A stretch of 20,945 bases of DNA, from positions 1 through 20,945 of IMG/VR virus record IMGVR_UViG_3300005838_000083. The stretch is one strand, 5' to 3'. Of the stretch, positions 1-20,945 are shown one piece after another; the first letter of the stretch is position 1; every line of letters starts with the position of its first letter. The DNA is from a virus. The notes under the pieces were generated by a model, which was not told where the DNA came from, searched no databases, and worked only from the letters and a program-made list of their open reading frames with translations. Position numbers and translations under genes: made by a program.

Positions 1-279
1 AATAACAGCAATTTGATTAGTTTGAACTTTTTTAAGCCATCCCTCTTGGTGTAATGCACCTAGCATATTTCTACCGTCTGGTAAAGTTGCTTTATGGAAA
101 GCATCACTTAGTGATTGTTCTTGTTGTCCTTCAGTTTCTAACACTTTCATTACTGGATCATGAACACCGCCTGGCAGTACATCTGAATATACAACTAATG
201 CCATGTGTGGTTCTGCAGGAACTTCTCTATAAACGATAATAATCTTACGTTCATTATGTCTTCCAACATGTTTAATCAT
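1..279 (-). CDS. Conserved phage protein of unknown function (3' part beyond the window)
   Basis: The frame opens with ATG at 279 and stays open to base 1, giving 93 residues with the C-terminus missing. It begins MIKHVGRHNERKIIIVYREV and continues with a compact alpha/beta-looking region rich in V and I. No catalytic motif, membrane segment or zinc site is visible. The style resembles short conserved proteins of marine T4-like phages, but I cannot name a function. The start overlaps the end of the upstream 92-aa gene by 8 bp (272-279), so translation is probably coupled. The start is well supported because it is the first ATG and the overlap is short. Confidence 0.7.
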   Translation of the reverse strand, partial: MIKHVGRHNERKIIIVYREVPAEPHMALVVYSDVLPGGVHDPVMKVLETEGQQEQSLSDAFHKATLPDGRNMLGALHQEGWLKKVQTNQIAVI

Positions 280-550
280 TTTTTGTTTCTCCTTTATCAG
301 CAGTGTCTGTTTCTTTTTCTTCTGCATCTTTTGGTGGTAGAAGTGACTGTAAAAAGGATGATAACTTTTCATATATGGCACCAACTTGTGTTAACTCACC
401 GGCACGCCATGCACCTCTTTGTGAACCTAATTCAATACAACTACGTAGCAAAGCTAAATCTTGTACTGTTAATTGTGGTCCAGGTTGCTGTTCTTCTTCT
501 TTTACTTCTTCTTTTACTTCTTCTTTCTTTTCTTTAATATCTTTAACCAT
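272..550 (-). CDS. Small charged conserved phage protein, 92 aa
   Basis: This 92-residue protein has three parts: a Lys/Glu-rich head (residues 3-21, with a repeated KEEV unit), a central region of about 45 residues (LTVQDLALLRSCIELGSQRG onward) predicted to be helical, and a Lys/Glu/Asp-rich tail. The central part resembles small conserved proteins of T4-like marine phages, but the function is unknown to me. The ATG at 550 follows AGGAG with an 8-nt spacer. A 12-bp palindrome overlaps that ribosome binding site and a late-promoter-like motif lies about 30 bp upstream, so the gene may head its own unit. It overlaps the next gene by 8 bp. Confidence 0.75.
   Translation of the reverse strand: MVKDIKEKKEEVKEEVKEEEQQPGPQLTVQDLALLRSCIELGSQRGAWRAGELTQVGAIYEKLSSFLQSLLPPKDAEEKETDTADKGETKND
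494..526. repeat. 12-bp tandem repeat inside the 92-aa gene
   Basis: The unit TTCTTCTTTTAC occurs at 494-505 and 506-517, with a partial third copy to about 526. On the minus strand it encodes the repeated KEEV segment. It is a low-complexity coding repeat that could change length by slippage in whole codons. Confidence 0.8.
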
Positions 551-559
551 GTAATACTC

Positions 560-571
560 CTATTCGAATAG
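560..571. promoter_or_regulatory. Palindrome overlapping the ribosome binding site of the 92-aa gene
   Basis: CTATTCGAATAG is a perfect 12-bp dyad. Its proximal end overlaps the AGGAG ribosome binding site of the gene starting at 550. It could be a protein-binding operator or a weak translational hairpin. No function is shown by sequence alone. Confidence 0.35.
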
Positions 572-579
572 TGTGTTTC

Positions 580-587
580 TACTTATA
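580..587 (-). promoter_or_regulatory. Candidate T4-type late promoter
   Basis: TATAAGTA on the minus strand differs by one base from the T4-type late promoter TATAAATA and lies about 30 bp upstream of the ATG at 550. There is no good -35 box, as expected for that class. The motif is short and could be chance. Confidence 0.3.
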
Positions 588-619
588 TTTAACGGTGTTA
601 TACCATTGGGGGTAAATTT

Positions 620-1942
620 TTATTTGTTTTCTTCGTACAATGCCCATTGGCCAAACGGTGGGTTAGGATTATCATTGCTATGTATAACCCATACAGTTTC
701 GCAATAGTTAGCGTCACCCCAGGTCCCCCAAGGATAACCATCTGTAAACACTACCAATCTTTTTGGTAAAATATCATTGTCCTTAAGATAGTTGAACATA
801 CAATCAAAATCTGTTCCGCCCCCACCTTCTATTTCATACTCAGTGATATCATCTAAGTTCTCACTGGTAAACTCTTGAGGATTATGAACTTCTGTATCAA
901 ATGAGAACATATGTATTCTGTAATTGTTAAATTCTTCAGTGATACCTTTAATTTCACCTTTAAAATCACTTAGCATTTTATCACTCATTGAACCTGATGC
1001 ATCAATACCAATAGCAATATCAATCATTTCTTCATGATCTGTACCTGGAAGTATAGCATCCATGTGCCAACCTCTTCTACTTGGGCGAGCAAATGTATAA
1101 TCACTTTTCTGTGTACTTTCAAGTTGTTGTCTTAACAGTTCTCTCCAGTTCATCTTAGGCTCTGTAATTTCCTGTATTATTCTTTTAACACCACCTGGAA
1201 GATTATCAGCACCTGTTTGTTTAGCGGCACTTACTATTGCTTCTTTGAGTTCGTCTTTGATGTCTTGTAGCTCTTGTTTAGATAGTTTAGGACGACCTTT
1301 GCCTTGACCTTCTTCTTTTTTCTTATCTTTACCTTTACCTTCGTCGTCGCCGCTACCTTCAGAAGTAGTTGATTCCTCATTTTCTAAATGCTCATCTAAT
1401 AACTGGTCAACTAGATCTTGTATATCAACCTTTTCAGCATTCTCATATAAATCATCATACACACGTTCGTAGTTCCAACCATAATATTTTGTATCGTGTA
1501 AGCATGGAACAGTAGTAATCATCTCGCCCACTTTGTGTTGTACTAGATCACCATTAACACAATAGTCAGCGGCAACGTTTGAAAGTTGAGCTTGATGATC
1601 GTTGTCAACTCTACGACCAATATGCTCATATACACAATGAAGAACTTCGTGGCCAAACAAAAACTCACATTCTTTCTCTCCTGACAACATCATGATAAAG
1701 CGTGAATTGTAGTAAAACTTACGACCGTCTGTTGCCGCAGTAGGACACCATTCATCAGCATTAGTAAGTGTTAGTCTTGTTGCCAGGTTGCCAAAGAAAG
1801 GTTGTTTAAGAAGTAAGCCAATTCTAGCAGTAACTAAACGTTCTCTCGCTTCTCTATCAATATCTTTGTCTGTAGGACCTAAGATATCTGCAAATTTATC
1901 TTCTATGTCTTTTGTGTTTGATGTTGTAGTAGTTGTAGTCAT
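620..1942 (-). CDS. Putative metallopeptidase with C-terminal VWA domain (DUF2201-like), MoxR partner
   Basis: The protein has 440 residues. An N-terminal metallopeptidase-like region carries HEVLH at 98-102 with a further His at 106. A Lys/Glu/Gly-rich linker spans about 188-235. A von Willebrand A domain follows, with the metal-binding DASGS at 314-318, GGGTD at 374-378 and DGYPW at 401-405. This order fits the DUF2201 family (putative metallopeptidase plus VWA-like), whose members usually act beside MoxR-type AAA+ ATPases; such an ATPase lies about 1.8 kb upstream in the same direction. By analogy the pair would remodel or activate a target complex; the target is unknown. A perfect sigma70 promoter ends 7 nt before the ATG, so the mRNA would be leaderless. 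No other ATG occurs before residue 84. The first codons are rich in C and A. Confidence 0.88.
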   Translation of the reverse strand: MTTTTTTSNTKDIEDKFADILGPTDKDIDREARERLVTARIGLLLKQPFFGNLATRLTLTNADEWCPTAATDGRKFYYNSRFIMMLSGEKECEFLFGHEVLHCVYEHIGRRVDNDHQAQLSNVAADYCVNGDLVQHKVGEMITTVPCLHDTKYYGWNYERVYDDLYENAEKVDIQDLVDQLLDEHLENEESTTSEGSGDDEGKGKDKKKEEGQGKGRPKLSKQELQDIKDELKEAIVSAAKQTGADNLPGGVKRIIQEITEPKMNWRELLRQQLESTQKSDYTFARPSRRGWHMDAILPGTDHEEMIDIAIGIDASGSMSDKMLSDFKGEIKGITEEFNNYRIHMFSFDTEVHNPQEFTSENLDDITEYEIEGGGGTDFDCMFNYLKDNDILPKRLVVFTDGYPWGTWGDANYCETVWVIHSNDNPNPPFGQWALYEENK

Positions 1943-1948
1943 ACAAGT

Positions 1949-1977
1949 ATTATATGAGTTTTTGAATTAAATGTCAA
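1949..1977 (-). promoter_or_regulatory. Perfect sigma70 promoter with predicted +1 at the VWA start codon
   Basis: TTGACA (1972-1977) and TATAAT (1949-1954) are separated by 17 bp (1955-1971). The seventh base after the -10 box is the A of the ATG at 1942, so the transcript would have no leader. The -35 box overlaps the TGA stop of the 78-aa gene. Confidence 0.85.
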
Positions 1978-2210
1978 TAGTTATTTTTTGCACTAAATTT
2001 TAATAAGAATACTTCTGCATAGTATTCATTTTCAAATACAAAATATAAATGTTTTCGACCTCGAATTGAACAGTTGTGTGTTTGTGCTAACCAAAAAGAT
2101 ATTTCTTTACCTAAGTCTTCAGATTCCATAGCCCATTCTTCTTTATGTGTCATGAAATGATGTTTAACATTTTCCCACATTGTGGGTTCTAAAGGAACTT
2201 TAATACTCAT
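1974..2210 (-). CDS. Small phage protein, 78 aa, C-terminal 'LxFxxxxxAxxFxLK' family
   Basis: The function is unknown. This 78-residue protein is rich in aromatic residues and ends with a segment (LYFVFENEYYAEVFLLKFSA) that resembles the C-termini of the 70-aa (2793-3005) and 99-aa (3478-3777) neighbours: a beta strand, a short acidic turn, then an amphipathic helix with F/L-x-L-K. I infer that the three are distant paralogues sharing a small fold. The ATG overlaps the TGA of the DegT-like gene by 4 bp. No ribosome binding site is visible. The start codon lies in the centre of a 21-bp palindrome, so hairpin-controlled or coupled translation is likely. Confidence 0.75.
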   Translation of the reverse strand: MSIKVPLEPTMWENVKHHFMTHKEEWAMESEDLGKEISFWLAQTHNCSIRGRKHLYFVFENEYYAEVFLLKFSAKNNY

Positions 2211-2220
2211 TGAGTATTAA
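2200..2220. promoter_or_regulatory. 21-bp near-perfect palindrome at a stop/start junction
   Basis: The arms TTAATACTCA (2200-2209) and TGAGTATTAA (2211-2220) are exact reverse complements around one central base. On the minus-strand mRNA, 7 to 8 bp can pair, leaving the AUG of the 78-aa gene and the UGA of the preceding gene in the loop. It may be a translational switch or a DNA operator. Confidence 0.6.
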
Positions 2221-2800
2221 TTTTAATATTTTTTAAGTTAGGATACTGTTTGTATTTAGGCATTTGATCATGACTACCTAATAGCTCTAATGCTTTTAGA
2301 GCTTCTTCTGGTACGGGTTTATAGTGATAACCTAGTTCAAACTGTTCCTGTTTGTCCCAAGGTGACACAGATAAGTCTCTACCATCATAGCACATCAGTT
2401 TAAGCTTCTTATACAATTCATAATCATCTAACAAGATAGCACCACCACGTCCTAATGTCAAGGGCTTACCATGTCCAAAACTTAGACACTGTATCTGTCC
2501 TGGTTTATACATTCCTTCTGTTAGCTTTCTTGCTGAATCCCAGATGTTAGTATGCCAAAAATAGTATTCACCTAACCACTGTTCGTCGTTGTTATACTTA
2601 AAGTCAACACCAATCTTATGTAACATCATTGGTATTGAAATATAAGTGTAAGGAGTAAACTCTGTCTTTTTAAAGCCCGTTGCTAAGAAAGATAGTTCAA
2701 GTGCGTGTGTACAACAATCAGTCATTACAGAGTACCTAGCGCCTGTGTATTGTGCTAGTGCTTCTTCAAACTCTGTTATGTAGTCAAATGGGTTATTCAT
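2207..2800 (-). CDS. Minimal DegT/DnrJ/EryC1/StrS-like aminotransferase
   Basis: This 197-residue protein resembles the PLP-dependent DegT sugar aminotransferase family. Family-like elements are an N-terminal FEEALAQYTGARYSVMTDCC block (11-30), an Asp at 88 in WDSARK (the position of the PLP pyridine-contacting Asp), and Lys112 in SFGHGKPLTLGRGG (107-120), the expected Schiff-base lysine. Full enzymes are about 370-400 residues, so the C-terminal small domain is almost absent. It may be a compact phage version or a protein that binds PLP or nucleotide-sugar without full catalysis. The ATG at 2800 is preferred to an in-frame GTG at 2815 because it gives a shorter overlap (8 bp) with the 70-aa gene and the conserved block starts right after it. 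Confidence 0.72.
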   Translation of the reverse strand: MNNPFDYITEFEEALAQYTGARYSVMTDCCTHALELSFLATGFKKTEFTPYTYISIPMMLHKIGVDFKYNNDEQWLGEYYFWHTNIWDSARKLTEGMYKPGQIQCLSFGHGKPLTLGRGGAILLDDYELYKKLKLMCYDGRDLSVSPWDKQEQFELGYHYKPVPEEALKALELLGSHDQMPKYKQYPNLKNIKINTQ

Positions 2801-3005
2801 TCCACAAGTAACCACCTAATTTTAAACTGGCCGCAACAGCATCACGTTCGTTATTAAAGAATATAGTTATAGCTTGATGATTTATATGAGAATGCCAATT
2901 CTTTCCAGGTAGTCCAAACTGTTCAGTAACCCAGGCCATTTCTTCATTCCATTGGCGTAGAGTGTCTCCCTGTTTCCATCTCACTTTAACTGGATACTTT
3001 TTCAT
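2793..3005 (-). CDS. Small phage protein, 70 aa, same C-terminal motif family
   Basis: The function is unknown. This 70-residue protein has a basic, tryptophan-containing N-terminus (MKKYPVKVRWKQGDTLRQWN), a middle segment EEMAWVTEQFGLPG and a C-terminal AITIFFNNERDAVAASLKLG. The end matches the strand, turn and 'DA..A.LK' helix pattern of the 78-aa and 99-aa neighbours. The ATG at 3005 is chosen over an in-frame TTG at 3017; GAAGAG just upstream is a modest ribosome binding site. It overlaps the end of the deformylase gene by 20 bp and the DegT-like gene by 8 bp, so it belongs to one tightly coupled unit. Confidence 0.72.
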   Translation of the reverse strand: MKKYPVKVRWKQGDTLRQWNEEMAWVTEQFGLPGKNWHSHINHQAITIFFNNERDAVAASLKLGGYLWNE

Positions 3006-3471
3006 TTTGCTCTTCAAAACGATTGTGCATAACTATACCATCTAGGTGATCAAGTTCATGTTGAAAGCAGATAGATTTTATCCCCCAAAGTATTGCTTTG
3101 ATTAACTCACCTTTGTGATTATGATATTCTACCTCTATCTGTGCTGGACGTTTTATATTCATTGACTCACCAGGAAAACTTAAACACCCTTCCTCAATTT
3201 GAATCAACTGTTCACTGTGGCTAACAATACGAGGATTAAAGCATTGCATAGGTAATCCTCCTGTAATAAAGTCAGTTTGCATAACAAACACTCTAGCTGA
3301 TATACCAAGTTGCGGAGCCGCAAGCCCAATGCCATTAGACTTTTTCATAAACTCTACCATTCTTTGTGCTAGATGTAAATTCTTTTCGGGTTTAGTAAAG
3401 TCAAAAGGTTGTGCAACCTCGTGTAACACAGTGTCTTTAAATTTAAATTTACTTGGTATCTTTACTTTCAT
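2986..3471 (-). CDS. def: Peptide deformylase
   Basis: The enzyme removes the N-formyl group from nascent proteins as they leave the ribosome. All three family motifs are intact in 161 residues: GIGLAAPQLG (47-56, with Gln54), EGCLSFP (94-100, metal ligand Cys96) and QHELDHLDG (137-145, metal ligands His138 and His142, catalytic Glu139). Bacterial enzymes are about 165-190 residues; the short C-terminal helix makes this resemble other phage deformylases. It sits between small unknown genes in the MoxR unit. The ATG at 3471 lies 6 bp after the stop of the 99-aa gene. Phage deformylases are established in marine phages and are thought to sustain translation late in infection. Confidence 0.95.
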   Translation of the reverse strand: MKVKIPSKFKFKDTVLHEVAQPFDFTKPEKNLHLAQRMVEFMKKSNGIGLAAPQLGISARVFVMQTDFITGGLPMQCFNPRIVSHSEQLIQIEEGCLSFPGESMNIKRPAQIEVEYHNHKGELIKAILWGIKSICFQHELDHLDGIVMHNRFEEQNEKVSS

Positions 3472-3477
3472 TTATTA

Positions 3478-3777
3478 TCATTTCCATTTTAGTAAAAATA
3501 CGTCAACTTCCTTAGATGACAAAAAATATATCCTATTAGGGTGTACGGTGTTTTGATTATCCCAACACCAAAATTGATTAGATCTCTCTCTTTTCTTTAG
3601 TCTTAACCAACTTTGTAAGTCTATTGAGTTACCAAATGATGCCCAACACCAACTAACAGCTTCAGCAAAATCCTCTACTGCTTGTTGATAACTTATACGA
3701 TCAAATTCAACACAGTAGAGGAAGTCTGGATGTGCATTCCATTGCACTGATGTTCTTCTGACTTTAAATGTACGCAT
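3478..3777 (-). CDS. Small phage protein, 99 aa, same C-terminal motif family
   Basis: The function is unknown. This 99-residue protein is rich in Trp and Phe. It has a helical middle (AVEDFAEAVSWCWASFGNSI) and ends NRIYFLSSKEVDVFLLKWK. The end has the same strand, short polar turn and hydrophobic helix with F-L-L-K as the 78-aa and 70-aa proteins downstream. The ATG at 3777 follows the MoxR stop by a single base, with no clear ribosome binding site, so it is probably read by re-initiating ribosomes. Its position directly after MoxR makes a link with the ATPase possible but unproven. Confidence 0.75.
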   Translation of the reverse strand: MRTFKVRRTSVQWNAHPDFLYCVEFDRISYQQAVEDFAEAVSWCWASFGNSIDLQSWLRLKKRERSNQFWCWDNQNTVHPNRIYFLSSKEVDVFLLKWK

Positions 3778-3778
3778 T

Positions 3779-4864
3779 TTAACGACTGGCTTTTAATATA
3801 TACTTTCCATACTTATCATGAAACTTGTCAAAGCTCTTAAGTTTAGTTGGACTAAACTTTAAGTCATATGTAGTAAGAGCTGTTCTAGCACCCATAACTA
3901 CAATTTCTGTTTCAAAGTTTTTCATCATATATTCAAAGAAGCAGTCAAGATTTTTAAGCCATTTATCTTCTTTGACATTGTTTTCTTGTCGCTCTTTAAG
4001 TTCATAACACATGGACACTACCAACGAATACATAGCTGATATATCTTTAATTTCTAACTCTTTAACTTTGCCTTCTAGTATGTCTTCTGGATTAGGCATT
4101 TGTCCAGCTACTTTTCTGTGTGCCATAAACTTAACAGCCAGGCCTTCTCCAACACTACCTGCTATTAGGTTGAGTAGAACGTTCTTGTCGGAATCTTCGT
4201 CTTCAAGTAACTCTGAGACAAAAGTCCACGAACGGGGGGTAGCGAACGCCCTACTCGAACTCTTAGGATCGAAATCGTATAAATCTTGTTTACTATATGC
4301 AAGATAACCGATAACGTCTTTATGTATTTTGTTTTTAACAGCCCATTCTTCCCAGCTTTCAAAATCAACTCTCATTTCTAAATGAATAAATCTATTAGCA
4401 AGTGGAGTAGGCATTCTGTAAGTAACACCTTTATCTGACTCTCTGTTACCTGCGGCTACCATAACAACATTGTCTGGTAAATGATACTTACCAACACGTC
4501 TGTTTAATATTAATTGATATGCCGCGGCCTGTACAGCAGGTGCCGCTGAATTCATTTCATCTAAGAACAATACAACAACTGGATATTCTTTAGCAAGTTC
4601 TTCACTAGGTAAATCAATTGGAGGAGCCCAATCCATTAATCCGTTTTCTTTATTATAAAAAGGAATACCTCTGATGTCTGTTGGATCCATTTGACCTAAA
4701 CGTAGATCAATCATATGACCTTTCATGTCTTGAGCAATATCTGCTACTAATTCTGATTTACCTATACCTGGAGGACCCCAAAGGAATACAGGACGTTGTT
4801 TTTCAAAACATTTTCTAAGTCCTGTTCTAGCATCTTGTGATGTTATAGTTCTTGTATCTGACAT
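3779..4864 (-). CDS. MoxR-family AAA+ ATPase
   Basis: This is a 361-residue AAA+ ATPase of the MoxR/RavA type. Visible motifs are Walker A GPPGIGKS (30-37), Walker B VVLFLDE (97-103), sensor-1 Asn140 in VAAGN, and an arginine in PLANRF (154-159) at the usual finger position. MoxR ATPases form hexamers that work with VWA-domain partners to mature or remodel protein complexes. The partner here is most likely the metallopeptidase-VWA protein encoded at 620-1942. Expression starts from a consensus promoter at 4908-4936, leaving a leader of about 37 nt with a GGGGGTG ribosome binding site before the ATG at 4864. The substrate is not indicated by the context. Confidence 0.92.
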   Translation of the reverse strand: MSDTRTITSQDARTGLRKCFEKQRPVFLWGPPGIGKSELVADIAQDMKGHMIDLRLGQMDPTDIRGIPFYNKENGLMDWAPPIDLPSEELAKEYPVVVLFLDEMNSAAPAVQAAAYQLILNRRVGKYHLPDNVVMVAAGNRESDKGVTYRMPTPLANRFIHLEMRVDFESWEEWAVKNKIHKDVIGYLAYSKQDLYDFDPKSSSRAFATPRSWTFVSELLEDEDSDKNVLLNLIAGSVGEGLAVKFMAHRKVAGQMPNPEDILEGKVKELEIKDISAMYSLVVSMCYELKERQENNVKEDKWLKNLDCFFEYMMKNFETEIVVMGARTALTTYDLKFSPTKLKSFDKFHDKYGKYILKASR

Positions 4865-4907
4865 TTTTTACACCCCCGTGTTATTAATAAATTTCTAACT
4901 TACAAAC

Positions 4908-4936
4908 ATTATATAATAATGTGATTTACTAGTCAA
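4908..4936 (-). promoter_or_regulatory. Sigma70 promoter of the MoxR unit
   Basis: TTGACT (4931-4936) and TATAAT (4908-4913) have a 17-bp spacer. The -35 box overlaps the last codons and TAG stop of the upstream 127-aa gene. The predicted +1 is near 4901. Confidence 0.85.
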
Positions 4937-5312
4937 CCACTATTATGTCTTCTTGATAATCTTCTTTTTGTCTAAGTTCTTCAAATACTTTTTGATCTTC
5001 GGGTGACATAACAAAGTCTTCACTTTCTGTAGTTAATCCGTCAAGTGCTTCAAGTTCATTAGGGCCTAAGTATCTTGTAGTACCATCTTTATCTGGTGCT
5101 GGTTCTACTGTGCTTTCAAACTCTATAGGTCTTTGAAATTCTTGACTGCCGTTGTGTTGTTTTGGATTTTTTTCTATTTCTAGACCTAAAGGATTAAGCC
5201 ACTGTTGATATGTTGAATATCCACTTAACATAATAAGTAGAATGACAACTACATAAGACCATGCCTTATATTGAAGGTACTGCTTCTTTGTTATTTTCTT
5301 CTTTAGTTTCAT
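4929..5312 (-). CDS. Single-pass membrane protein with acidic tail, 127 aa
   Basis: The function is unknown. A basic N-terminus (MKLKKKITKKQYLQYK) is followed by one membrane segment (about residues 18-36) and then a long soluble part rich in Glu and Asp that ends IIVVD. The charge pattern favours the tail lying outside the cytoplasm, as in a type II protein. The start overlaps the preceding 83-aa gene by 47 bp in another frame, which is unusually long for this window. Overlap and single-pass topology recall an inner-membrane spanin, but the partner lacks a lipobox and coiled-coil content is low, so I do not make that call. Confidence 0.7.
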   Translation of the reverse strand: MKLKKKITKKQYLQYKAWSYVVVILLIMLSGYSTYQQWLNPLGLEIEKNPKQHNGSQEFQRPIEFESTVEPAPDKDGTTRYLGPNELEALDGLTTESEDFVMSPEDQKVFEELRQKEDYQEDIIVVD

Positions 5313-7681: not shown

Positions 7682-7756
7682 TGGTACACCCTAGGAGAAT
7701 CGAACTCCTCTCCCGGCCGTGAAAGGGCCGTGTCCTAACCGATAGACGAAGGGTGC
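7682..7756 (-). tRNA. tRNA-Glu (anticodon TTC) with encoded CCA
   Basis: The 75-nt cloverleaf has acceptor arms GCACCCT/AGGGTGT (one G-U pair), anticodon stem CGGCC/GGCCG around the loop CTTTCAC (anticodon TTC), T-arm GAGGAGTTCGATTCTCC, and an encoded CCA. It is intact by eye and closely resembles bacterial tRNA-Glu. It is the first product of the 7798-7826 promoter, about 35 nt downstream of the predicted +1, and must be processed away from the omega-like mRNA. Confidence 0.95.
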
Positions 7757-9761: not shown

Positions 9762-10421
9762 TCACTTCTCCTTTTCAAATACTATTCTAATGTGCCCGTT
9801 CAGATAGAAATCATCTACTACATCTGGTTGTTGAAAAATATAATCATCATATGCTAACACATTTGATAATGCTAGATCAACTTGTTGTTTGATATGTGAT
9901 GATAACTGTTCATTCGGGATCAGTTCACTTGGTTTGGTTACTTCTATCATTCTTTTAACGTTAAATGTAATAAAGCCTCTACCACCAGGTTTAATGATAT
10001 TAGAAAAATTATTAAGTTGTTTAGTAATGTCAGTCAATGAAATAAAATGTAGAGAATTGATAGCCATAGCACAATCAAATTTGTTTGTGTGTCCAATACT
10101 AAAGTCCTCGTCAAAATAATCAACCTGATCAACATTAGGATTCTCTACTGGATCATTTCCGTGTATCTCAGGAATAAAATTTTTAAAAAAGTTTGAGCCA
10201 CACCCAATGTCTGCTATTTGTTTAGGATTCTTTTCCAATAACTTCAGTATATAAAAAAATGGAGCAACACGTAAAGTTAGTATGGTGTCACGTGGTTGAG
10301 CATCATAGTCAACGGGTGAATACCTAGTAGTCATCCATCTTGGTGTTTCAGCTAATAGTCTTTTTCCAATTTCTGTCTTAGGAAAATCAATTTTAAATTG
10401 TTCTTCGTTGTAGTTGTCCAT
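9762..10421 (-). CDS. Class I SAM-dependent methyltransferase
   Basis: The 219-residue protein has the Rossmann SAM-binding motif IADIGCGSNFF (69-79), an acidic region after the second strand (GNDPVENP), a motif IV-like FDCAMAINSLHF (115-126) and a post-core strand IIKPGGRGFITFN (142-154). The substrate is not evident; the fold is the small-molecule or RNA type without a DNA-recognition domain. SAM may be boosted by the phage MetK encoded at 13502-14584. The start ATG overlaps the stop of the flap nuclease gene as TAATG. The N-terminal 65 residues are helical and may act as a substrate cap. Confidence 0.8.
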   Translation of the reverse strand: MDNYNEEQFKIDFPKTEIGKRLLAETPRWMTTRYSPVDYDAQPRDTILTLRVAPFFYILKLLEKNPKQIADIGCGSNFFKNFIPEIHGNDPVENPNVDQVDYFDEDFSIGHTNKFDCAMAINSLHFISLTDITKQLNNFSNIIKPGGRGFITFNVKRMIEVTKPSELIPNEQLSSHIKQQVDLALSNVLAYDDYIFQQPDVVDDFYLNGHIRIVFEKEK

Positions 10422-11416
10422 TACCCTTTCTCTGGGTAACTGGCGTTCATCCAGTCAACCATTGTGTTAGCGTTATCGCTTAGTTTTACTAAATCATATT
10501 TACCACAAAACTTTAAGAACTTAGCTCCTACCATTGGAACCTGTTTTGCTTTAGACCCTTCAGCAATAGTTTGTGCCATCTTAACTTTAATGTCATCTGG
10601 CTGTTTTGTCAAGTCTACTAGAATACAATTACGTTCATAATCATCTAACACTCGATGTTCTTCTTCATTGTGATCAACCCAACGCTGTAACATCATATTA
10701 TTCCAGTTGTAACCTTTTTTCTTTTTATCTTCAAAAGCTTCAACTAATCCAACTTTGTTACGTGTACCTTTTTTACGTACACCTGGATAAGCAGAGAATA
10801 CATTATCTGTAGCATCACCACGCATACATTTCTCAAACAGTATCCATTCAGGATCTGGTACTACCTTAGGCTCTTTAGTTTTCTTATCTAGCACACGATT
10901 ACCTTTTTTATCAAAGATACCTTCAAGTGTGTGTAGCTCATCTGTGATACCATTATACTGTTTTACATTTTCTGCTAGCAGTTGATAAAAGTCTGTGTCT
11001 GAACTTACAATAATGTGTTCATCATTGGGATGACTCTGGATCCAACCTGCTATCAAATCATCTGCTTCAAGCTCTTTGTGCTGTAATGTTGTACAGTTTG
11101 TACCTTCTTTAATAAAAGTATTCATAGCATCAAAGCTTTCCCAGAATGCTTTATCTTCTTCTGCTTCTTTGTCAGTTAGTGCTTGTCTTGCTACAGTTCT
11201 ATTCTTTTTGTAGGGCTCATAAAAGTCTTTACGCCATGAGCGTCCTTCTAAACAGAATATAACATGATCTGCTTTTTGGTCTCTGTGTACTTTGTTTATG
11301 CTTGCTAGAGTAACATGAAGTGCAAAGCCTACTTTTTCCCAGGTATCGCTTGCTCTAAATGCTGAATGTCTAGCACGAAAGAATGTGTTTGCTGTGTCTA
11401 CTAATAAGTATCTCAT
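10421..11416 (-). CDS. rnh: 5'-3' exonuclease / flap endonuclease, T4 RNase H-like
   Basis: The 331-residue protein is a FEN/PIN-fold nuclease that would remove RNA primers and flaps during lagging-strand synthesis. Metal-binding acids are seen at Asp7 (LLVDTANTFFRA), Glu117/Asp119/Asp120 (ELEADDL), Asp140/Asp142 (SSDTDF) and Asp201/Asp204 (RGDATDN), followed by a helix-hairpin-helix-like YPGVRKKGTRNKVGLVEAF. The bridge region with YEPYKKNR (67-73) is typical. T4 RNase H is 305 residues, so the length fits. A perfect promoter ends 7 nt before the ATG at 11416, so transcripts from it would be leaderless; upstream read-through is also possible. The 5' coding sequence is rich in A and C. Confidence 0.9.
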   Translation of the reverse strand: MRYLLVDTANTFFRARHSAFRASDTWEKVGFALHVTLASINKVHRDQKADHVIFCLEGRSWRKDFYEPYKKNRTVARQALTDKEAEEDKAFWESFDAMNTFIKEGTNCTTLQHKELEADDLIAGWIQSHPNDEHIIVSSDTDFYQLLAENVKQYNGITDELHTLEGIFDKKGNRVLDKKTKEPKVVPDPEWILFEKCMRGDATDNVFSAYPGVRKKGTRNKVGLVEAFEDKKKKGYNWNNMMLQRWVDHNEEEHRVLDDYERNCILVDLTKQPDDIKVKMAQTIAEGSKAKQVPMVGAKFLKFCGKYDLVKLSDNANTMVDWMNASYPEKG

Positions 11417-11422
11417 ACTAGT

Positions 11423-11451
11423 ATTATACGATCAAACGAGTTTATTGTCAA
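11423..11451 (-). promoter_or_regulatory. Perfect sigma70 promoter with predicted +1 at the flap nuclease start codon
   Basis: TTGACA (11446-11451) and TATAAT (11423-11428) have a 17-bp spacer. The -10 box, six bases and ATG read TATAATACTAGTATG, nearly identical to TATAATACTTGTATG at the VWA gene. The -35 lies inside the last codons of the upstream SGNH-like gene. Confidence 0.86.
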
Positions 11452-18568: not shown

Positions 18569-19023
18569 TATTTTTTCTCCGCTTCTGCCACTCGTTTACG
18601 TAATGAACTTGAACTAAATGAATGATCGCGGCCATTATATACTAATTCAATTCCCCTTTTAATACAAATATCTTTACCAGTAAAGTCTTTATCTTTATAC
18701 TCTACTCCTAATATTCTAACATCTATTGGCATAGAAAGCAAGATATCTTCTAAATCTTTTTCTGTTTGGTATACCACAATTTCATCAACAAAGCGATTAC
18801 ATCCTAACTGTATCTGTCTTTCTACTATTGACTGTATAGGACTGTTTTTGTTTGCTCTGTCTAGTGTAGGATCTGTTTGCAATCCTGCTATCAAGTAATC
18901 ACAGTGATTTTTACATTCGCTTAACATAGCAACATGCCCAGCGTGTAATAGGTCAAAGGTTGAGAAAGTGATGCCTATCTTCAACCCTTGGTCTTTAAGT
19001 TGTTTTACTTTATCAAATATCAT
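18568..19023 (-). CDS. TagD/RfaE-like nucleotidyltransferase (HxGH family)
   Basis: The 151-residue protein is a cytidylyltransferase-like enzyme: ITFSTFDLLHAGHVAML contains the HxGH motif (His27, His30), and HSFSSSSLRKRV near the C-terminus corresponds to the second nucleotide-binding motif (ISSTxLR type). Such enzymes join CMP or AMP to glycerol-3-phosphate, ethanolamine phosphate or heptose-1-phosphate to activate a head-group or sugar. The single-domain length fits TagD-like proteins. It may feed the glycosyltransferase or surface modification, but the substrate cannot be read from the sequence. It is coupled by TAATG to the protease gene before it and to the 53-aa gene after it. Confidence 0.82.
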   Translation of the reverse strand: MIFDKVKQLKDQGLKIGITFSTFDLLHAGHVAMLSECKNHCDYLIAGLQTDPTLDRANKNSPIQSIVERQIQLGCNRFVDEIVVYQTEKDLEDILLSMPIDVRILGVEYKDKDFTGKDICIKRGIELVYNGRDHSFSSSSLRKRVAEAEKK

Positions 19024-20945
19024 TAAAAAGTAAACTCGTAAAATGCACCAACTAATGCGTCACCTTCTTGATCAACAGCACCATTAAGTCTTAAATTGTG
19101 TACATTACCAAATTTATCTTCTGAGTTGGTTAAGTTATACTGAGCACCTACATAACTAACAGGCTCACCTGTCATGTCTGCTTTGGCATTAGTATATGAC
19201 ATAACACCTGTGCTACTAACTGATGTTGGTATTCTTAAATCTAACTCACCATCTATCACAGTAGGCTTAACACCTACATATAAGTTTAAGTTATCGTTAG
19301 CCCAACCAGCAACACCATACATTGAAGTAATATTATCAACATCTTCAACTAGTCCGCTATCAAAGTCTGTTATAGAATACATAATACCTAGTTGTGCATA
19401 CCAATTGTCTGGCTTATACATTGTTGAATACTCAAATGTGTCTGTTGAATTAACTTGCCCCCACATACCACTGAAGCTCATAAAAGGTGATCCGTAACTT
19501 TTTGTGTAAGTAAATCTTTCTGTCCAGTTACTTGGATTCATAATTTTTCCAGTGTACTGATCTCTTATTGCCAGAGCTGAACTGTCAAACCCAACTGATA
19601 TTGCATCAAATGTATCATCACCTAAGTCTTGTTGATAAGCATTAAGATACCAACCTTTATAGTTTGCACCTTCTCCTCCTACAAACTTACTTGACCATGA
19701 ACTACCCACTGAGTGATCTAATTGATATACAGGAATTAAATTTGAGCTACCTTCCTTAAGATCTAGTGTTGATGAACTCAAATCAACTGTGTAGTCACGA
19801 CCTATTTCATCAACTACTTTAACACTTGACAGTTCTGTTATATCACTAATACCTGCTACGGCAATACCACCCGATAGTGGTGTAGTGGATCCTGTTCTAC
19901 CTGTCATTGATATACCTAAACTACCAATTGGTTCAGTAGCTCTCTTAAGATCTAACAAGCCTTGACCGTGTGTGTTAACATTGTAACCTACTATAGTTTT
20001 GTCAGCAGTATCTAATAACACTTGAACAATGTTTTCACCTTTCATGTATGGCCACATTTGATGTATAACTGCTACTGCACCAGCAACTACAGGAGCCGCT
20101 TGTGATGTACCACTCAATGCTTTATAAGTACCATCTTTGTATGCACCATACATATTACTGCCTGGTGCTAATATATAAAAGTCTGAAGTTCTATAAGTGT
20201 CTAAACATTCACTGCCACTATAGTTTTTACAAATATGTCCTGACTTTGCACCATCAATAGTGTTAGTAGAAGTATTCCATGCACTAACAACTATTGCACG
20301 ACCGTCCATAACCAAGTTACCTGAACTATCTGTTGCTACTGCAAATGTCGCAGGATTCTGTACATAATCGTTTGATTGATTACCTGCTGATATAGTTAAT
20401 ACTATTTCACTACCTGACATAGCACTACCCCAAGACTCTGGAGTTTCCATATTATAATAGTTAGTTCCGCCATAGTGTTCATGGTTACTAGTAAACACAC
20501 CATTACCTCGATTAGTAATTGAACTTGTGTAGGATGAATGATAGTTTGTATTTGCTGATAAGTTGGCTACTACTGCGTCTGTATTATTCTTAAGATATGT
20601 AATACCTTGTTTTGCAAAGCTCATTGAAGCTGACCATGAGTCAGTAATTTTAACAATAGCTAGGTTAGCATCTGGTGCTATACCCATAACATCTCCGCCC
20701 ATGTTACCAGCCGCAATTGATGCTACATGAGTACCGTGACCTACTGAATCTTCAATTCCATTGTCATAACCTGGTTCCCATTGATACTTAACTTTGCCAA
20801 CTAGTTCTGGGTGATCAATATCAACTCCACTATCTAATATACCAATTGTGGATCCTTTACCTGTCCATCCTCTTGACAATGCCCACTCTTGACCAACTGC
20901 TGAGTTAAAGTTTTTAAAGTTATCAAGACCTTGATAATATGTTGG
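19023..20945 (-). CDS. Subtilisin-like serine protease with C-terminal beta-barrel-like domain (5' end outside window)
   Basis: The frame stays open to the right edge, giving 640 visible residues (numbered from base 20945) with the N-terminus missing. The S8 triad is intact: Asp38 in GILDSGVD, His70 in GHGTHVAS, Ser281 in SGTSQAAP, with oxyanion Asn189 in ISAGN. After about residue 330 the sequence changes to alternating strands rich in Tyr, Trp, Ser and Gly and ends GAFYEFTF, a terminal aromatic typical of outer-membrane barrels. The layout resembles a subtilase autotransporter (SphB1-like) rather than a phage tail protein. A signal peptide, if any, is outside the window. It is coupled by TAATG to the nucleotidyltransferase gene. 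In a phage this is unusual; cell-surface proteolysis during infection is inference. Confidence 0.82.
   Translation of the reverse strand, partial: PTYYQGLDNFKNFNSAVGQEWALSRGWTGKGSTIGILDSGVDIDHPELVGKVKYQWEPGYDNGIEDSVGHGTHVASIAAGNMGGDVMGIAPDANLAIVKITDSWSASMSFAKQGITYLKNNTDAVVANLSANTNYHSSYTSSITNRGNGVFTSNHEHYGGTNYYNMETPESWGSAMSGSEIVLTISAGNQSNDYVQNPATFAVATDSSGNLVMDGRAIVVSAWNTSTNTIDGAKSGHICKNYSGSECLDTYRTSDFYILAPGSNMYGAYKDGTYKALSGTSQAAPVVAGAVAVIHQMWPYMKGENIVQVLLDTADKTIVGYNVNTHGQGLLDLKRATEPIGSLGISMTGRTGSTTPLSGGIAVAGISDITELSSVKVVDEIGRDYTVDLSSSTLDLKEGSSNLIPVYQLDHSVGSSWSSKFVGGEGANYKGWYLNAYQQDLGDDTFDAISVGFDSSALAIRDQYTGKIMNPSNWTERFTYTKSYGSPFMSFSGMWGQVNSTDTFEYSTMYKPDNWYAQLGIMYSITDFDSGLVEDVDNITSMYGVAGWANDNLNLYVGVKPTVIDGELDLRIPTSVSSTGVMSYTNAKADMTGEPVSYVGAQYNLTNSEDKFGNVHNLRLNGAVDQEGDALVGAFYEFTF

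Follow-up and report, generated by a model that had tools for sequence, protein, structure and literature searches.

The locus considered here occupies part of the window, i.e., the whole 20,945-nt stretch of viral DNA that was analysed, and is centred on a gene encoding a protein with metallopeptidase and VWA domains (Table 1). Both domain assignments score above the curated Pfam cut-offs (PF13203, 6e-37, 128 bits against a cut-off of 23.2; PF09967, 2.1e-18, 67 bits against 26.4), and the motifs HEVLH and DASGS are visible in the protein. The family has matches in at least 705 phage records; its RaK2 homologue is annotated as N4 gp25-like and adjoins a gp24-like ATPase. At the same time, PHROG 1314 and many phage records label the protein encoded at 620–1942 as an HNH endonuclease. 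This label is at odds with the DUF2201 metallopeptidase–VWA domains and probably represents a propagated misannotation.

The same protein families make up the N4 gp24/gp25-type pair of an ATPase and a DUF2201 VWA protein, and the homologues adjoin each other in RaK2 and 121Q. In the window, the two genes are split by ca. 1.8 kb (both lie within 620–4864), and a 99-aa ORF, a peptide deformylase gene, a short DegT-like aminotransferase gene, and a 78-aa ORF without a Pfam or PHROG match are found between them. Another difference is that the VWA gene of the window possesses its own predicted leaderless promoter, whereas the reference homologues are leadered. Elsewhere in the window, positions 19023–20945 encode an S8 subtilase (PF00082) running past the window end; its C-terminal part is long and, as judged by eye, bears a likeness to an outer-membrane beta-barrel. 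The only match in bacterial genomes was to a MAG contig labelled Akkermansia, in which the copy appears leadered; this match is uninformative on the host.

Table 1. Genes and promoter elements of the window discussed in the text.
Feature	Position	Strand	Remarks
DUF2201_N metallopeptidase and DUF2201 VWA protein, 440 aa, N4 gp25-like	620..1942	(-)	PF13203, PF09967
ATG start codon of the VWA gene	1940..1942	(-)	A at 1942 is the predicted +1; spacing kept in L005 and L006
Discriminator ACTTGT	1943..1948	(-)	Without Shine-Dalgarno (SD) sequence; anti-SD duplex +1.8 kcal/mol
-10 hexamer TATAAT	1949..1954	(-)	17-nt spacer from the -35 hexamer
-35 hexamer TTGACA	1972..1977	(-)	Overlapped by the TGA that ends the 78-aa ORF
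Upstream 78-aa ORF	1974..2210	(-)	Stop overlaps the -35 box; 31 nt from stop to the VWA ATG
AAA/MoxR ATPase, N4 gp24-like	3779..4864	(-)	phrog_1297, 3e-105; usual phage partner of the VWA protein
ATPase promoter TTGACT-17-TATAAT	4908..4936	(-)	43 nt before ATG 4864, strong SD; leadered comparator
5'-3' exonuclease gene (T4 RNase H-like), predicted leaderless	10421..11416	(-)	PF02739, 2.6e-20; phrog_107
Second perfect promoter TTGACA-17-TATAAT	11423..11451	(-)	Spacing to ATG identical to that of the VWA gene

The promoter of the VWA gene matches the sigma-70 consensus in all 12 hexamer positions, its 17-nt spacer falls within the 16–18 nt accepted here, and it is the sole perfect match in positions 1–5000. 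The earlier note placed the -10 box 7 nt before the start codon; the layout was confirmed, but strictly the two are six nucleotides apart, which makes the A of the ATG the seventh base following the box. An A in the seventh position after the -10 hexamer is the usual, favoured start of sigma-70 transcription. As predicted from the position of the -10 box, transcription of the VWA gene should start (+1) at the A of its ATG (1942). No anti-SD pairing was found upstream of this codon (+1.8 kcal/mol vs. -6 to -10 kcal/mol for the clear SD genes of the window). The only in-frame starts after codon 1 are ATG 84, ATG 85, and TTG 86, in agreement with the original observation that no other in-frame ATG precedes residue 84. 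The start codon is AUG, as leaderless initiation prefers, and ATG is likewise present in the relatives L005 and L006.

The first 45 nt of the VWA gene fold to 0.0 kcal/mol, i.e., they are unstructured, and consist of C and A by 76%, the highest value among the 26 genes of the window that were compared (mean 57%, sd 7%). Hence, the C/A-rich first codons pointed out in the earlier note are real, but they are not specific to leaderless genes, since the leadered L007 and L008 reach 71% and the leaderless exonuclease gene only 53%. A CA-rich start as an adaptation to leaderless translation was ruled out as specific evidence on these grounds, and the similarity to L007 and L008 suggests that the CA-rich poly-Thr start of the VWA gene was inherited.

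Comparison with relatives reveals both arrangements of the VWA gene. In L005 (85% identity) and L006 (82%), TTGACC or TTGACA is followed after 17 nt by TATAAT and then by exactly six bases preceding the ATG; these six bases are altered (ACTAGT, ACGTGT) compared with ACTTGT in the window. In L007 (78%), TTGACC-17-TATAAT is followed by 24 nt holding AAGGAG and then by the ATG, and in L008, L016, and L037 (60%) the -10 box and the ATG are separated by 23 nt with AGGAG inside. The promoters of L007 and L008 are comparable with that of the window, and their gaps are 17–18 nt longer. More distant environmental relatives display a promoter-like sequence and a leader with a recognisable SD in nearly all cases, and the homologues in reference phages are leadered. 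A leader with a ribosome binding site, the arrangement that the earlier note had set against its own reading, is found in the more distant relatives and not in the leaderless clade. In the tree of 21 VWA proteins, the three leaderless ones group together with 99/98 support inside the leadered ones, and one change is sufficient. The leaderless form is thus a single derived clade, and the loss of a short leader in one event would be the simplest reading. The start codon of the VWA gene aligns with the N-terminus of the leadered homologues (MATTTTSNTKDLEDKF in L007), which indicates that the leaderless ATG is the real N-terminus of the protein.

Overall, the window harbours four perfect promoters (16–18 nt spacing), which are found exclusively on the coding strand; dinucleotide shuffles yield on average 0.03 per strand, and this mean drops to 0.0025 if an ATG 5–7 nt downstream is also required. 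One of the four (7826–7798) precedes tRNA-Glu (7682–7756) and most likely serves it. In this case, an ATG at the seventh base opens an ORF of only 18 codons, so the spacing by itself is no proof of a gene. This ORF is present in G002, and its ATG is absent in G001. As the ORF is that short, runs into tRNA-Glu, and has no ATG in G001, this site was ruled out as a third leaderless gene. The ATPase gene has its own promoter, a 43-nt gap, and a strong SD, so leadered and leaderless genes coexist in the window.

The second predicted leaderless gene of the window is that of the 5'-3' exonuclease, in which the six bases ACTAGT lead from the -10 box to ATG 11416. Among its relatives, the best promoter lies at offset 6–9 from the ATG (counted in bases after the -10 box) in 62 of the 69 distinct upstream sequences, in 59 of them at exactly 7, and none of these 62 upstreams contains an SD. 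Pairwise differences at third codon positions in this set have a median of 55%, hence most of the sequences are not near-copies. The upstream gene ends anywhere from -44 to +1, and the -35 box occurs in all three phases relative to its stop, so the coding of that gene does not account for the hexamers. A column-wise profile of 67 sequences (numbered with the A of the start codon as +1) features two conserved blocks, -35..-30 and -12..-7, with neither an SD-like block nor a G at -1. The N-terminal residues YLLVDTANTF represent the conserved start of the enzyme and leave no room for a downstream start. In the tree of 77 exonucleases, the leaderless or leadered label needs only five changes. Taken with the conserved spacing in the VWA clade and the match of its start to the N-terminus of leadered homologues, the recurrence of the layout on other genes supports, at the level of sequence, the leaderless reading proposed initially.

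The isolate homologues (PA5oct-like, Eneladusvirus, and RaK2) of this RNase H-like exonuclease share 47–54% identity and the same N-terminus, but lack a consensus promoter fused to the ATG; their genes are leadered or coupled to the upstream gene. Isolate phages were rejected as a source of transferable start-site maps, since their exonuclease and VWA homologues are leadered or coupled; cyanophage gp46 homologues were set aside because they overlap the upstream gene. Across the -10 region, many of the exonuclease promoters (e.g., in L208, L215, and L237) show an inverted repeat of the type ATAATA-TGC-TATTAT, which may be an operator or a variant of the extended -10 element.

In the fetched relatives, the gene-start ATGs following promoters are found at offset 6–7 or mostly at 19 and above, with almost none at 10–18. 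This distribution is dominated by the exonuclease gene, and an independent sample was therefore taken from IMG/VR. It comprised 144 promoters of the form TTGACA-N14-TGN-TATAAT, among the matches listed, and represents a sample, not a census; nine ATGs opening at least 60 codons were found at offset 7 vs. ca. 0.7 per offset at 8–19. In exact-match IMG/VR scans, 85 of the 128 ATGs at offset 7 opened at least 60 codons among the matches listed; at offset 13, likewise among the matches listed, 27 of 115 did so, and the share for any ATG was 19%. The pattern fixed on TATAATACNNGTATG was found in at least 120 contigs, where 92 of the 123 ATGs open at least 60 codons among the matches listed, with DNA polymerase, gp46-like nuclease, and primase among the products. 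The two-mode offsets of the phages resemble the gap in leader length measured in Lactococcus cremoris, where there are no leaders of 4–14 nt (PMC10986495).

Two further observations concern other genes. In a family of 80–86 aa proteins (MTKELERLAEQAGLPVTD...), the ATG lies at the sixth base after TATAAT in about nine distinct sequences (L166 3849, L168 3619, L175 3501, and others), which makes this family a further leaderless candidate. A QueE-like gene is leaderless-like at offset 7 in L185 and L189 and leadered at offset 23 in L165 and L167, providing a second example of switching.

The following mechanism is proposed. A host-like RNA polymerase of the sigma-70 type would transcribe the VWA gene from the consensus promoter, and the transcript would start on the A of the initiation codon or no more than 1–3 nt from it, so the mRNA would begin with 5'-AUG. 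The ribosome would then take the terminal AUG with the initiator tRNA by the 70S route, as in lambda cI, instead of relying on an SD. The leaderless form would have arisen once in the clade from a leadered ancestor with a comparable promoter and a short SD leader, and the exonuclease gene of the same phage fragment would use this layout as well, which is conserved over a broad range of uncultured phages. The features behind this scheme, i.e., the promoter match, the spacing, the absence of an SD, the conservation, and the single derived clade, are directly observed. According to the introduction of PMC5230787, leaderless mRNAs are translated by undissociated 70S ribosomes and accept very few nucleotides ahead of the AUG; such a tolerance fits the narrow promoter–ATG spacing. 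We consider it highly probable that all of this holds jointly: a VWA mRNA starting at the AUG and read without an SD, a form that arose once, and an exonuclease gene behaving alike. The actual start site, the absence of a dominant leadered transcript, and the mode of translation would be as predicted from these sequences.

Other explanations have been weighed as well. A long transcript from the ATPase promoter (4936) could cover the VWA gene, and such RNA would carry no SD at the VWA ATG; the gene might be translated mainly from this or another read-through message in an SD-independent manner, via the unstructured A/C-rich region, with its own promoter only adding RNA. The genes are co-directional, the start region of the VWA gene is indeed unstructured, and no terminator-like site is present on this strand from 4864 to 1942 (in positions 1–5000, the only one lies inside the VWA gene). 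However, read-through leaves unexplained the 6-nt promoter–ATG gap in L005 and L006 and the clustering of starts at offset 6–7 with almost none at 10–18, and we regard it as unlikely. Still less probable is translational coupling, whereby ribosomes ending the upstream ORF restart at the ATG of the leaderless gene. Some exonuclease relatives (L166 and others) do have an ATGA overlap with the upstream stop at +1, but the stop upstream of the VWA gene is 31 nt away, and in the exonuclease set the stops vary in position and phase while the promoter remains fixed. Finally, an accidental promoter match and distance, with the real VWA start elsewhere, is hardly credible: AT-rich DNA often contains loose matches to the promoter consensus (18 observed vs. 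18.8 expected), but four perfect ones far exceed the shuffled expectation, and the promoter–ATG spacing is conserved in relatives.

Leaderless genes have been documented in other phages. The cI gene of lambda encodes a regulator of lysogeny and is transcribed from an activated promoter. Lambda cI is treated as the standard leaderless model in PMC5230787. The genes described here are similar to the cI mRNA transcribed from PRM in being phage genes with a promoter-proximal ATG and no SD; they differ in that perfect-consensus promoters serve genes for a metallopeptidase–VWA protein and a 5'-3' exonuclease, and in the setting, since the window fragment is related to large T4-like phages. In the Thermus thermophilus phage phiYS40, middle and late genes are leaderless (PMC3594737), so that one phage has several such genes, as does the window fragment with its two predicted ones. 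In contrast to the middle and late genes of phiYS40, the window combines host-like sigma-70 consensus promoters, SD genes alongside, and one recent switch.

Since leaderless phage mRNAs are already known from lambda cI and phiYS40, the novelty resides in how widely phage genes share the layout. In a literature search restricted to open-licence papers, no mention of leaderless genes was found for this phage group. That many uncultured phages conserve the layout on a replication-type gene, and that the VWA gene has recently switched, seems to be unreported in this literature, which is offered as a lead and not as a priority claim. We would only tentatively suggest that a conserved leaderless programme operates in uncultured phages, of which many are T4-like, and covers some of the genes for replication and takeover (exonuclease, DNA polymerase, gp46-like nuclease, primase, and VWA protein). 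In such a programme, promoter and start codon would be fused within ca. 35 bp, often located in the final part of the preceding gene, and genes would switch between the leadered and leaderless states.

If true, such a programme would mean that these genes are translated by a route without the need for an SD helix. Phage leaderless genes are known mostly as single cases such as cI, and the exonuclease layout described here spans many divergent phages. The VWA gene and its close leadered relative form a natural before-and-after pair on leader loss, and the strong compact promoter–ATG fusions provide a set for testing leaderless translation in infection. In addition, gene finders giving weight to SD sequences can misplace leaderless starts.
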